Shown piece by piece: positions 23,715 to 41,529 of a stretch of DNA of 64,000 nucleotides. The stretch comes from Sideroxydans sp. (lineage in GTDB: Bacteria > Pseudomonadota > Gammaproteobacteria > Burkholderiales > Gallionellaceae): assembly GCA_028687425.1 (NCBI GenBank), contig JAQUAD010000002.1, positions 1 to 64,000 on the forward strand, in the 5' to 3' direction. A model generated the notes under the pieces. It made no database searches. It was given only the letters and a program-made list of their open reading frames with translations, and was not told the origin of the DNA. A program made the translations under genes and the position numbers. Each line of letters begins with the position of its first letter. Positions within the stretch are counted from its first letter, which is position 1.

Positions 23715-25385
23715 ATGGCACAAGGTCAATACGTAATGTCCATGCTCCGCGTGAGCAAGATCGTCCCTCCCAAGCGTCAGATCATCAAGGATATCTCCCT
23801 CAGCTTCTTCCCCGGCGCCAAGATCGGCCTGCTCGGTCTGAACGGCTCGGGTAAATCCACCGTGCTGCGCATCATGGCCAAGCAGGACAAGGAATACGAC
23901 GGCGAAGTGCAACACCTGCCCAACATCAAGATCGGCTACCTGCCGCAGGAACCCGTGCTCGACCCGAGCAAGACCGTGCGCGAGGAAGTGGAGTCCGCAC
24001 TCGGTGAAGTGATGGAAGCGCAGAGCAAGCTGGACGCCGTGTACGCCGCCTATGCCGAGCCGGATGCCGACTTCGACGCACTCGCCGCCGAGCAGGCACG
24101 TCTGGAGAACATCATCGCCGCTTCGGGTAGCGATGCCACCCACCAGATGGAGATCGCCGCTGATGCATTGCGTCTGCCCGAGTGGGATGCCGTGATCAAG
24201 AACCTTTCCGGTGGTGAGAAGCGCCGCGTGGCACTGTGCAAACTGCTGCTGGAAAAACCGGACATGCTGCTGCTCGACGAACCCACCAACCACCTCGATG
24301 CCGAATCGGTGGAATGGCTGGAACAGTTCCTGGTGCGCTTCCCCGGCACCGTGGTCGCCGTCACCCACGACCGTTACTTCCTCGACAACGCCGCCGAGTG
24401 GATCCTCGAACTGGACCGCGGCCAGGGCATCCCCTGGAAGGGTAACTACTCCGAATGGCTGGAGCAGAAAGAAGCGCGTCTGGAGCAAGAGAACAAGCAG
24501 ATCGACGCCCACATGAAGGCGATGAAGCAGGAACTGGAATGGGTGCGCCAGAACCCCAAGGCGCGTCAGGCCAAATCCAAGGCGCGTCTGCAACGCTTCG
24601 AAGAACTTTCCAGCACCGAATACCAGAAACGCAACGAAACGCAGGAGATCTTCATCCCCGCCGGTGAGCGTCTGGGTAACGAAGTCATCGAATTCGAAGG
24701 CGTCAGCAAAGCCTATGGCGACCGCCTGCTGATCGACAACCTCAGCTTCAAGATCCCGCCCGGCGCCATCGTCGGCATCATCGGCCCCAACGGTGCCGGT
24801 AAATCCACGCTGTTCCGCATGATCACCGGCAAGGAAACACCGGACAGCGGCACCGTGAAGATCGGCCAGACCGTGAAGATCGCTTTTGTCGACCAGTCAC
24901 GCGAAGGGCTGGACAACGACAAGACCGTGTTCGACGCCATCTCCGGCGGCAACGACATCCTGACAGTCGGCAAATACGAAACCCCGGCACGTGCCTACAT
25001 CGGCCGCTTCAACTTCAAGGGCGCAGACCAGGGCAAGATCGTCGGCCAGCTCTCCGGTGGTGAGCGCGGTCGTTTGCATCTGGCGCAGACCCTCATCTCC
25101 GGCGGCAATGTGCTGCTGCTCGACGAACCCTCCAACGACCTCGACGTGGAAACCCTGCGTGCGCTCGAAGACGCGCTGCTGGAATTCGCCGGCTGCGTCG
25201 CCGTCATCTCCCACGACCGCTGGTTCCTCGACCGTATCGCCACCCACATCCTCGCCTGCGAAGGCGATTCGAAGTGGACGTTCTTTGATGGCAACTATCA
25301 GGAATACGAAGCGGACAAGAAGAAGCGTTTGGGTGAAGAGGGAGCTAAGCCTAAGCGGATTCGGTATAAGCCGATTAGCCGGTAA
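23715..25385 (+). CDS. ettA: Energy-dependent translational throttle protein EttA (ABC-F)
   Basis: Two ABC domains (GLNGSGKST, GPNGAGKST; LSGGEKRR, LSGGERGR), ABC-F linker, EttA-like length. Confidence 0.95.
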   Translation: MAQGQYVMSMLRVSKIVPPKRQIIKDISLSFFPGAKIGLLGLNGSGKSTVLRIMAKQDKEYDGEVQHLPNIKIGYLPQEPVLDPSKTVREEVESALGEVMEAQSKLDAVYAAYAEPDADFDALAAEQARLENIIAASGSDATHQMEIAADALRLPEWDAVIKNLSGGEKRRVALCKLLLEKPDMLLLDEPTNHLDAESVEWLEQFLVRFPGTVVAVTHDRYFLDNAAEWILELDRGQGIPWKGNYSEWLEQKEARLEQENKQIDAHMKAMKQELEWVRQNPKARQAKSKARLQRFEELSSTEYQKRNETQEIFIPAGERLGNEVIEFEGVSKAYGDRLLIDNLSFKIPPGAIVGIIGPNGAGKSTLFRMITGKETPDSGTVKIGQTVKIAFVDQSREGLDNDKTVFDAISGGNDILTVGKYETPARAYIGRFNFKGADQGKIVGQLSGGERGRLHLAQTLISGGNVLLLDEPSNDLDVETLRALEDALLEFAGCVAVISHDRWFLDRIATHILACEGDSKWTFFDGNYQEYEADKKKRLGEEGAKPKRIRYKPISR

Positions 25386-25444: not shown

Positions 25445-26023
25445 ATGCCTAAGAATAGAAGCGAACTTGAAAGCACTTACAGTAATGCCTGCGACCAAGG
25501 CAGTTATCGTGTTATGTTATCTGGGCGCTATGAGAAGAATACTGCTCAAACGGTGCCAGGATTTTTGCATTTTGGCAAAGCAAGTCTTCTTTATGAGTTG
25601 GACGTTCTCAGCGTTGACAATGAAACTTCCTACTTAAGCCAATATGCTACTTGTCTTTGGTTCGATGGCATTCCTAACAAAACTGGGGATACATTTCGAG
25701 CAGCTTATGAGTGGGTTTTAGATGTCAAAGAAGATTTGCGTGGACAGGGGGCTGGAAGCTTCTATTTTTTAGTCCAAACGAAGGTCCTTCCTAGATACGG
25801 CGTCAGTCAAATTTGGCTATCTGCAGAATATTTTGGCCCTCGTTTTTGGAAAAAGCGCGGGTTTAAATTTGTTGACGATACATTTTGGCTTCACTATGAC
25901 GAATATTGCGAGTTCAATTCAGATGCTCCAAAAACACGCAATGTTGATGAAGTGCCAGTCGAGTACTTCAACGAACTACGAGGAAGTGGGCTCAAATATT
26001 CGATGGTTTACAATTTTAATTAA
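25445..26023 (+). CDS. GNAT-like N-acetyltransferase, AT-rich accessory gene
   Basis: VKEDLRGQGAGSFYFLVQTKVLPRYGVSQIWLSAEYFGPRFWKKRGFKF resembles GNAT motif A/B. Confidence 0.6.
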   Translation: MPKNRSELESTYSNACDQGSYRVMLSGRYEKNTAQTVPGFLHFGKASLLYELDVLSVDNETSYLSQYATCLWFDGIPNKTGDTFRAAYEWVLDVKEDLRGQGAGSFYFLVQTKVLPRYGVSQIWLSAEYFGPRFWKKRGFKFVDDTFWLHYDEYCEFNSDAPKTRNVDEVPVEYFNELRGSGLKYSMVYNFN

Positions 26024-26028
26024 TTACT

Positions 26029-27603
26029 ATGCAACTACGTTTAGCATCTCGGTTCGATCCGAATCAGTCATATCTTGAGGCATCGTTCATGTCGCAAGAA
26101 GGGATGCTTCGTCTTGAAAGTTTGGATTCTCCAATTTCGAGCGTAGAAGAATATTATGGTACGCAACATATCAGTAGCTCTTTTGATTATTCTTATCTAG
26201 ACCAACATGGTTGGCACCCGATTCGTGGAGTGGCTGGGAATGTGGTTCGAAATCTACTCGTATTGCTTTCCCGAGAAGTAGTGAGCGGAAGACGCAACGC
26301 GTTATTTTCTTTTACTCAATCGTTTCTGAATGACTTGCCGAATACGGAGGAGTTTCGAGACGCATTGATTCAACAACCTGAAATAACGTTGCAGCAAATA
26401 GATTTAATTGGTAACAACGATGAAGAGTTATTGAGGGCATCTCTAGTAGAGCTTACAGGCTGGCTTTACTTCTACCTAAATTCACGCTTACTTGAGGATG
26501 GCGAGGGTAACGCCTTTGTGAGTACATTCTTGGGAGTTTTACTCGAATCCTCAGCCATTTCTGCTCAAGTAATACTCTCACAGCTTAATGAAATAGATTC
26601 TGAGTTTATTCCAACTTTCTCTACACCTGAGAGTTACAGAAGGTTGTTTCAAGCGGCGACCTCTGAATCGTCGAATCGGCAAACATTGAGTCAGATAGCC
26701 TATTTTTCGAGAGAAACTTGGGGAGCAGTGAATGACGAATGGGCACTTGCCGCTCGATCAGGCGTTCCTGAACATCAAAGTATCCCTACCGAAGTAATTA
26801 ATGCGATCCTCTCAGGCATAAGGCCTGTTTCCCCTCGGTTTTTACCTCAAACTCAGGATAGAAGCAGGCAGTTCGTTGCGCATCAAATTTTGCGATATTT
26901 TGATTTTCGGCTACCTCAATTGGACGAAGTGGCGACAGCTCTTGGAGTGCAGATACTGCGATTAGATCTCCCGGATGATCTTTTAGGATTGTATGTTGGA
27001 AATATTAGAAGACACGCACCAGTAATAGTGGTGAATGAACAAGCTAGAAATGAAGGCTCTCGTAATTTCACTATTGGCCATGAGCTGGGCCACTATTTAC
27101 TACATACATTTGAACCAATTTTTGCGTGCGGGGATATGGAGCTATATGGCTCTTCTCAGGATGCAGAATCTCAAGCAAACGAATTTTCCACAGAGTTGCT
27201 TATGCCTGTGCAGGCAATTCGCGATCACCTAAATGCTCAATTCTCAATTCAAAACGTACGGGATATCGCATCTGCATGTAACGTGTCTTTTGAGGCGGCG
27301 GCAAGAAGAAGAATTGAACTAACTCAAAACAGAAATATTGCATTGGCTGTGGTTGTTGGTGAAATGATTCAACGAATTTACGGTAGCACTATTAATGAGG
27401 AAGGTCTGCGTTGGATCGGACGAGCGTCTGTTGGGAGAAATGCGGTTAGTTTGACTCAAGCTCGCCGACTCTCGGAACAAAGGGTCGCAAATCTTTCGAG
27501 ATTCTTTCCTGGTGTCCAGCGGCTAGAACTGGCTGATTTGGAAATTGCCGTGTTGCCTTTTGAAAACGGTGAAGGTTATTACCTGTTCCTTGAACGAGGA
27601 TAG
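26029..27603 (+). CDS. ImmA/IrrE-like (M78/DUF955) Zn-metallopeptidase with long novel N-terminal region
   Basis: FTIGHELGHYLLH (HExxH) plus SQANEFSTELLMP; 5-nt gap to the upstream GNAT gene. Confidence 0.82.
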   Translation: MQLRLASRFDPNQSYLEASFMSQEGMLRLESLDSPISSVEEYYGTQHISSSFDYSYLDQHGWHPIRGVAGNVVRNLLVLLSREVVSGRRNALFSFTQSFLNDLPNTEEFRDALIQQPEITLQQIDLIGNNDEELLRASLVELTGWLYFYLNSRLLEDGEGNAFVSTFLGVLLESSAISAQVILSQLNEIDSEFIPTFSTPESYRRLFQAATSESSNRQTLSQIAYFSRETWGAVNDEWALAARSGVPEHQSIPTEVINAILSGIRPVSPRFLPQTQDRSRQFVAHQILRYFDFRLPQLDEVATALGVQILRLDLPDDLLGLYVGNIRRHAPVIVVNEQARNEGSRNFTIGHELGHYLLHTFEPIFACGDMELYGSSQDAESQANEFSTELLMPVQAIRDHLNAQFSIQNVRDIASACNVSFEAAARRRIELTQNRNIALAVVVGEMIQRIYGSTINEEGLRWIGRASVGRNAVSLTQARRLSEQRVANLSRFFPGVQRLELADLEIAVLPFENGEGYYLFLERG

Positions 27604-27637
27604 AAAATTATTGGCGGTGGCATCGTATCGGCATTTC

Positions 27638-27655
27638 ATCGCCCGCAAGGGCGAT
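27638..27655 (+). terminator. Dispersed GNRA-loop hairpin, copy 1
   Basis: ATCGCCC-GCAA-GGGCGAT then TTTCATTTT, 35 nt after the metallopeptidase stop. Confidence 0.65.
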
Positions 27656-27770: not shown

Positions 27771-27790
27771 CATCGCCCGAAAGGGCGATG
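27771..27790 (+). terminator. Dispersed GNRA-loop hairpin, copy 2
   Basis: CATCGCCC-GAAA-GGGCGATG then TGCTTTT. Confidence 0.65.
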
Positions 27791-27824: not shown

Positions 27825-28025
27825 ATGGAATTAAGTGAACTCGGTCTGGATGGTGCGCTTGCTGAGCAAGCCGAATGTGCATCAGGCCTTCATCTGGCGC
27901 GGGTGGTTGCTGTGGATCGCGGTCATTTTGTGGTGCGCAGTGAGCGGGGTGAGGCTTTGGCCGAGCTGACGGGGAAGTTTCTCTACACCGCCGATTCTTC
28001 CGCCAAATTAAAGGGGTCGGCATAG
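27825..28025 (+). pseudogene. Truncated 5' fragment of an rsgA-like gene
   Basis: LHLARVVAVDRGHFVVRSERGEALAELTGKFLYTADSS aligns with LHPARVTAVDRGRYVIRNAQDELPAELTGKFLHEATSS of RsgA at 40471; no GTPase domain. Confidence 0.85.
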
Positions 28026-40470: not shown

Positions 40471-41529
40471 ATGAAATCAGGAAAACCCGGTTGGGACGAA
40501 CAATTTGGAATACAGGCGGCTGCGCTGTGCGGAAGCGATCTGCACCCGGCGCGGGTAACTGCGGTAGATCGCGGGCGTTATGTCATTCGCAATGCACAGG
40601 ACGAGCTGCCGGCCGAGCTGACGGGCAAGTTCCTGCATGAGGCCACGTCATCGGTGGATATGCCGTGCGTGGGGGACTGGGTGTGTGTGCAGTATCACGA
40701 TGCGGGCGCGTCGGCGAGCATCCATGATGTGCTGCCACGGCGCTCTTTCCTTCGGCGCAAGGCGCCCGGCAAGCACATCGATTTCCAGATGATCGCGGCC
40801 AACATCGATGTGGCGTTCATCGTGCAGTCGTGTCATTTCGATTTCAATGTGCGCAGGCTGGAGCGCTATCTGGTGATGGTGAACGAGGGGCAGATCGAGC
40901 CTGTGCTGCTGCTGACCAAGACCGATCTGGTGAGCACGGCGGAGCTGGAACGCATGATGGGCAGCATCCGCGCGGCGGGCATCACGGCGCTCATCATCGC
41001 GTTGAGCAACCTGACGGGCGAGGGCGTGGCGCAGGTGCGTGAGGCGATGGAAGCGGGCAAGACTTATTGTCTGCTCGGTTCTTCCGGTGTGGGCAAGACC
41101 ACGCTGATCAACCAGTTGCTCGGTCAGGATGCGCTGCAAACGGGCGCGGTGAGCGGCACGGGCGAAGGGCGACACACCACCACACGTCGCCATCTGATCA
41201 CGCTGGATAACGGCGCATTGCTGATCGACATGCCGGGCATGCGCGAGCTGGGCATCATGAGTGCAGGCGAGGGCGTGGCGGACAGCTTTGCCGACATCAA
41301 GGTGCTCAGCGGCCAGTGCCGTTTCTCCGACTGCAGTCACGAACGTGAGCCGGGCTGTGCGATCCGCAAGGCGATCGAAAATGGCGAGCTGGATGCGGCG
41401 CATTACCAGAGCTATCTGAAGCTGCAGGCCGAGTCGGATTTCAATGAGATGTCGTACCTGGACAAGCGCAAGAAGGACAAGGCGTTCGGCAAGATGGTTC
41501 GTACGGTGCTGAAAGCGCGGAGGAAGTGA
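40471..41529 (+). CDS. rsgA: Ribosome small subunit-dependent GTPase A
   Basis: Circularly permuted GTPase: LLTKTDLV, LLGSSGVGKTTLINQLLG, LIDMPGMRELG, C-terminal Zn motif CRFSDCSHEREPGC. Confidence 0.96.
   Translation: MKSGKPGWDEQFGIQAAALCGSDLHPARVTAVDRGRYVIRNAQDELPAELTGKFLHEATSSVDMPCVGDWVCVQYHDAGASASIHDVLPRRSFLRRKAPGKHIDFQMIAANIDVAFIVQSCHFDFNVRRLERYLVMVNEGQIEPVLLLTKTDLVSTAELERMMGSIRAAGITALIIALSNLTGEGVAQVREAMEAGKTYCLLGSSGVGKTTLINQLLGQDALQTGAVSGTGEGRHTTTRRHLITLDNGALLIDMPGMRELGIMSAGEGVADSFADIKVLSGQCRFSDCSHEREPGCAIRKAIENGELDAAHYQSYLKLQAESDFNEMSYLDKRKKDKAFGKMVRTVLKARRK

Follow-up and report, generated by a model that had tools for sequence, protein, structure and literature searches.

In the window analysed here, a 64,000-nucleotide stretch of a Sideroxydans sp. 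contig, two adjacent genes directly 3′ of ettA may form a horizontally acquired toxin-antitoxin (TA) or defence module with a Rosmer-like mode of action, a reading to which we give a probability of about 0.45. The cassette combines identifiable domains in both proteins with intact catalytic residues, an operon-like arrangement, a foreign composition and a location within a defence hotspot. The first gene, ORF1, would encode a GNAT toxin that acetylates an essential target, for example an aminoacyl-tRNA or a translation protein, and ORF2 would serve as both antitoxin and sensor, its probably helical N-terminal region keeping ORF1 inactive. The CapP/PprI-like unit of ORF2 would respond to single-stranded DNA (ssDNA) from phage infection or DNA damage, and the activated protein would then cleave either itself or a partner, releasing ORF1. 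We infer that ORF1 is toxic, that ORF2 neutralises it, that ssDNA is the trigger, and what is cleaved; a Rosmer-like mode appears the most plausible because of the RosmerTA/RipAB and CapP/PprI precedents and because a GNAT-M78 pair is located in a defence hotspot. RmrA M78 proteins are the antitoxins of differing toxins (PMC10440598), RipB, which is of the Xre-M78 type, counteracts the toxin RipA (PMC12795458), and ssDNA activates both PprI and CapP (PMC10904395).

The genes that make up the locus are the following:

Positions 23715-25385, plus strand: ettA, encoding an ABC-F protein; its 3′ end is the hotspot boundary
Positions 25445-26023, plus strand: ORF1, 192 aa, divergent GNAT-like acetyltransferase and candidate toxin
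Positions 26029-27603, plus strand: ORF2, a 524-aa M78 (ImmA/IrrE) protein and candidate antitoxin/sensor

ORF1 starts 59 bp past the ettA stop codon, and the gap between ORF1 and ORF2, from stop to start, is 5 nt (26024-26028), in line with the original prediction of two closely spaced same-strand genes. In arrangement this is the two-gene same-strand operon of RosmerTA, the operon being predicted. No sigma-70-like promoter was found in the 59-bp leader before ORF1, nor any Rfam family in the cassette region. The cassette had also been described as more AT-rich than ettA, and the overall GC content was indeed 0.417 for ORF1 and 0.437-0.441 for ORF2, compared to 0.603 for ettA, while GC3 was 0.34-0.375 in ORF1 and ORF2 and 0.78-0.85 in three host genes. 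The horizontal acquisition proposed for the module is supported by this foreign GC and GC3, together with the site at which the cassette lies.

Immediately 3′ of ettA lies a hotspot that collects AT-rich, mostly unrelated defence/TA-type cassettes across the family. ettA itself was matched in all 101 of the family genomes searched, with DNA identities of 84-92% among the nearer of them, and its downstream sequence was read in 68 family genomes, comprising 10 of one genus, where a sodB-type gene usually lies 3′ of ettA, and 58 others. In these 58 other slots the next 2 kb had a mean GC of 0.46, with 42 of the 50 measurable slots falling below 0.50. The 95 ettA-slot proteins grouped into 72 families, and the slot content included a DRT-like reverse transcriptase, PDC-S06, PDC-S14, an NsnA/PD-T4-2-like protein and an AbiLi/AriA-like protein with a second gene. 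The 78 slot proteins scanned matched 209 PADLOC families, against 16 for 47 other window genes, a rough comparison given that these are counts of families rather than proteins and that related models overlap. M78 proteins were present in four ettA slots: three of these (G770, G773 and G822) hold an HTH-M78 gene followed by a DUF4411/PIN-type gene and resemble RosmerTA, and the fourth (G821) holds a 320-aa M78 protein with a 111-aa partner. The two DUF4411/PIN partners that were scanned (L106 and L128) matched no PADLOC model. In 12 of the 58 slots the last 23-180 bp of ettA occur again about 0.1-1.1 kb downstream, a mark of repeated insertion; when such a copy was sought in the window, only the one ettA 3′ end was present, and no repeat marks the insertion. 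The hotspot evidence strengthens the defence/TA reading that had been put forward for the cassette, within which the roles of ORF1 and ORF2 are ones that we infer. The site also provides a compact, family-wide address for reading out more defence candidates.

Hairpins and a broken rsgA had been noted 3′ of the cassette, and both were located there:

Positions 27638-27655, plus strand: terminator-like hairpin, 35 nt past ORF2
Positions 27771-27790, plus strand: second copy of the hairpin motif
Positions 27825-28025, plus strand: 5′ fragment of rsgA, 67 codons, adjoining the cassette

The presence of a truncated rsgA beside the cassette indicates that the region is undergoing rearrangement. An intact rsgA lies at 40471-41529, 12 kb from the fragment, and in another genome (G154, L056) an intact rsgA is found 3′ of the equivalent ettA cassette. 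The hairpins belong to a GC-rich repeat of ~27 bp with a ATCGCCCGnAAGGGCGAT core, which occurs in the window at 27637, 27771, 29409, 32070, 38124 and 40433; only two copies of its strict form, the one with a T tail, are present in the genome, and both lie within the window. Among the other window genes, one encodes a protein that matches PADLOC TIR-effector models (3.1e-10), and a weak match to PycC was also obtained.

ORF1 appears to be a divergent GNAT-like acetyltransferase. When it was compared by hhalign with an alignment of 24 GNAT domains, taken from the Sideroxydans genome and related genomes, residues 86-140 aligned with a probability of 77.7 (P 1.9e-5), while none of 100 shuffles of ORF1 exceeded 2.1 and its reversed sequence scored 0.1. 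The two motifs from which a GNAT-like protein had been predicted both fell in register within this alignment, as in the GNAT superfamily:

Positions 25739-25756, plus strand: GNAT motif A, RGQGAG (acetyl-CoA pyrophosphate loop), in register with the GNAT consensus
Positions 25844-25864, plus strand: GNAT motif B, FWKKRGF, aligned to the consensus alYeklGF, with Trp135 replacing Tyr

Since the single-sequence AlphaFold model of ORF1 was poor (mean pLDDT 35) and was left out of the fold search, the assignment is drawn from the sequence profile. ORF1 had no match in Pfam, NCBIfam, PADLOC (RmrT models included) or the PDB, and no homologue could be recognised in 400 order, 399 phylum and 34 genus genomes or in the plasmid, phage and viral-contig collections. 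Weak matches to ORF1 (L004, L148) and to the ORF2 N-terminus (L006, L007) were rejected as homologues, as they proved to be a generic GNAT-like protein, stop-containing frames or a borderline match within a 4,156-aa frame.

GNATs that act on small molecules are common, and this counts for an alternative in which the cassette is concerned with resistance or stress rather than being a TA module, the substrate of the GNAT being an antibiotic or other small molecule, with ORF2 as the stress regulator of the GNAT. A precedent of this kind is the preference for resistance as the function of GNAT-Xre and GNAT-RHH operons (Makarova et al. 2009, PMC2701414). We consider this unlikely for ORF1-ORF2, however, since ORF1 resembles none of the acetyltransferase families named in Pfam, NCBIfam or the PDB and the ettA slot is otherwise rich in defence/TA-type genes.

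ORF2 can be divided into two parts, and its putative catalytic residues lie in the second of them:

Positions 26029-26868, plus strand: residues 1-280, unmatched, predicted mostly helical in a low-confidence model
Positions 26875-27600, plus strand: residues 283-524, CapP/PprI-like, a peptidase followed by probable HTH-like and GAF-like parts
Positions 27079-27093, plus strand: HELGH zinc motif (H351, E352, H355), invariant in a 64-sequence alignment
Positions 27166-27168, plus strand: Glu380, probable third metal ligand, invariant in a 64-sequence alignment

Pfam placed Peptidase_M78 at residues 303-427 (E 8.8e-17), which together with the invariant catalytic residues upholds the ImmA/IrrE peptidase that the HELGH motif had suggested. 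The PADLOC capP model matched residues 283-480 (E 1.6e-32), and the RmrA models, at best 9e-12, matched the M78 part only (about residues 296-449). In the AlphaFold model of ORF2, block pLDDT was 76-95 over about residues 281-430 and lower beyond, and Foldseek aligned the model in the PDB with Thauera CapP (7t5t, 2.7e-9) and ssDNA-bound PprI (8sln, 2.9e-6), and also with IrrE, 3dti and 8slm; a viral Foldseek search returned mainly IrrE-domain matches at E < 0.001. With both the capP profile and the CapP and PprI folds matched, residues ~283-524 resemble a CapP/PprI-type protein along most of the length of CapP, and both HExxH and the distal Glu are kept. The HMM and structure searches originally suggested as a check therefore gave a GNAT-like profile for ORF1 and, for the C-terminal half of ORF2, an M78 peptidase of CapP/PprI-like predicted fold.

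The N-terminal part of ORF2 had been said to match nothing recognised and to show no obvious Xre HTH, and the profile, structure and genome searches were all blank. Residues 1-280 had no match in Pfam, NCBIfam, PADLOC, PHROGs or the PDB and no homologue in 369 class genomes or viral contigs, and the predicted structure of residues ~1-275 was poor (block pLDDT about 34-56) and mostly helical. The profile libraries detected no N-terminal Xre HTH in ORF2, and Pfam gave no RHH match. Whole ORF2, searched in 400 order and 229 class genomes, plasmids and phages, returned only M78-domain relatives; two further scans of genome contigs with whole ORF2 relied on short near-exact peptide matches, by which distant relatives could be missed. 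The N-terminal half is nonetheless a genuine reading frame, as its 280 codons form a single open frame, with 9-22 stops in each of the other five, and 0 of 20,000 shuffles remained open.

Among the best 80 relatives of ORF2 in GTDB species genomes, the similarity was confined to the M78 part. Most of these proteins are ~300 aa long, and many lie just after a ~106-aa Xre repressor, which is the CapH/CapP layout. The Sideroxydans genome also carries a separate CapH/CapP-like pair (G000:C16:3366-3734), in which a 109-aa Xre-type ORF is followed by a ~282-aa M78 ORF.

The layout of these relatives bears on the possibility that ORF2 is a CapP/PprI-type ssDNA-activated protease, and no binding antitoxin, whose cleavage of ORF1 or of a host repressor would turn the GNAT on. 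Its C-terminal unit resembles stand-alone CapP, and ORF1 holds the upstream position that in many CapP-like relatives is taken by the Xre repressor, the known type of cleavage target of such proteases (PMC10904395). ORF1 is without an HTH and is not CapH-like, however, and the usual substrate is missing because no CapH lies nearby; this reading, which moreover gives the ~280-aa N-terminal addition no role, thus seems unlikely to us.

The flanks of 110 relative loci, searched with the GNAT profile and with ORF1 as query, showed no GNAT next to the M78 gene, although the profile scores ORF1 only weakly and a GNAT as divergent as ORF1 may be missed. The ORF1-ORF2 pair is a singleton across all the genome, plasmid, phage and viral samples searched, and since neither ORF1 nor the N-terminal part of ORF2 yielded a homologue in them, the GNAT-M78 pairing is described from one locus. 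The lack of conserved linkage in the samples searched, and the truncated rsgA that adjoins the cassette, would fit two unrelated orphan genes that have become neighbours by chance within a hotspot gathering foreign DNA. Against such an accident, which we judge improbable, both ORFs are intact, lie 5 nt apart on the same strand, have the same foreign GC3 and lie ahead of a terminator-like hairpin, and the catalytic residues of the protease are all retained.

We therefore return to the Rosmer-like reading, against which we count the missing comparative support for the pairing, the absence of an Xre HTH from ORF2 and of an RmrT match, the motif-B Trp, the 110 loci in which no GNAT was found, the single ettA 3′ copy and the low-confidence model of the ORF2 N-terminus. 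A further, more tentative possibility is that the cassette represents an undescribed TA/defence family, in which a GNAT toxin would be controlled by one protein, a fusion between a new antitoxin domain and an ssDNA-sensing protease of CapP/PprI-like type, with the same polypeptide detecting DNA stress and releasing the toxin by proteolysis. If the Rosmer-like reading is right, M78 antitoxins would gain a GNAT among their partners. ORF2 would moreover be an M78 antitoxin that lacks the Xre HTH, usually presumed to be the cleavage target, and would make the cleavage targets of Rosmer-type M78 proteases testable.

GNAT toxins of the TacT/AtaT/KacT type have in common with the cassette a GNAT-like core in a two-gene layout. 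They differ from it in that the partner of ORF1 is an M78 protein rather than an RHH (DUF1778-type) antitoxin, to which ORF2 has no match, and in that ORF1 has no family match and carries Trp in place of the motif-B Tyr. The predicted fold of the ORF2 C-terminal half aligns with PprI/IrrE of Deinococcus (8sln, 3dti and 8slm), but PprI/IrrE has no counterpart of the N-terminal 280 aa and no DdrO-like gene lies beside ORF2. The CBASS-associated CapP of CapH/CapP (7t5t) resembles residues 283-524 in sequence (capP, 1.6e-32), predicted fold (2.7e-9) and catalytic residues; however, CapP relatives are ~300 aa long and often follow a ~106-aa Xre repressor, whereas ORF2 has an N-terminal extension and a GNAT gene upstream. 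As the gene upstream of ORF2 is a GNAT and no Xre ORF was found in the cassette, so that the Xre partner is missing, the cassette is not CapH/CapP, and CBASS membership was rejected, with no CapH or other CBASS genes recognised alongside.

The cassette shares with RosmerTA (RmrA/RmrT; RipAB of Streptococcus pneumoniae) an operon-like two-gene arrangement in which an M78/ImmA-IrrE protein is paired with a varying partner, and its M78 domain retains the catalytic residues H351, E352, H355 and E380. ORF1 comes first, and toxin-first order is common in RosmerTA, being found in 58% of the ImmA/Rosmer node (PMC10440598). In relatives, moreover, the same ettA slot holds the three HTH-M78 and DUF4411/PIN pairs. 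On the other hand, the GNAT partner matches no RmrT model, and ORF2 has a 280-aa unmatched N-terminus with no detectable Xre HTH of the kind seen in the HTH-M78 proteins of the neighbouring slots, so that the RmrA match does not extend over the full antitoxin with its N-terminal HTH, a domain described as frequent, not universal, in RmrA (PMC10440598). Given the partial RmrA match and the absence of any HTH detected in ORF2, the cassette is not filed as a RosmerTA member, but it may still work like RosmerTA.
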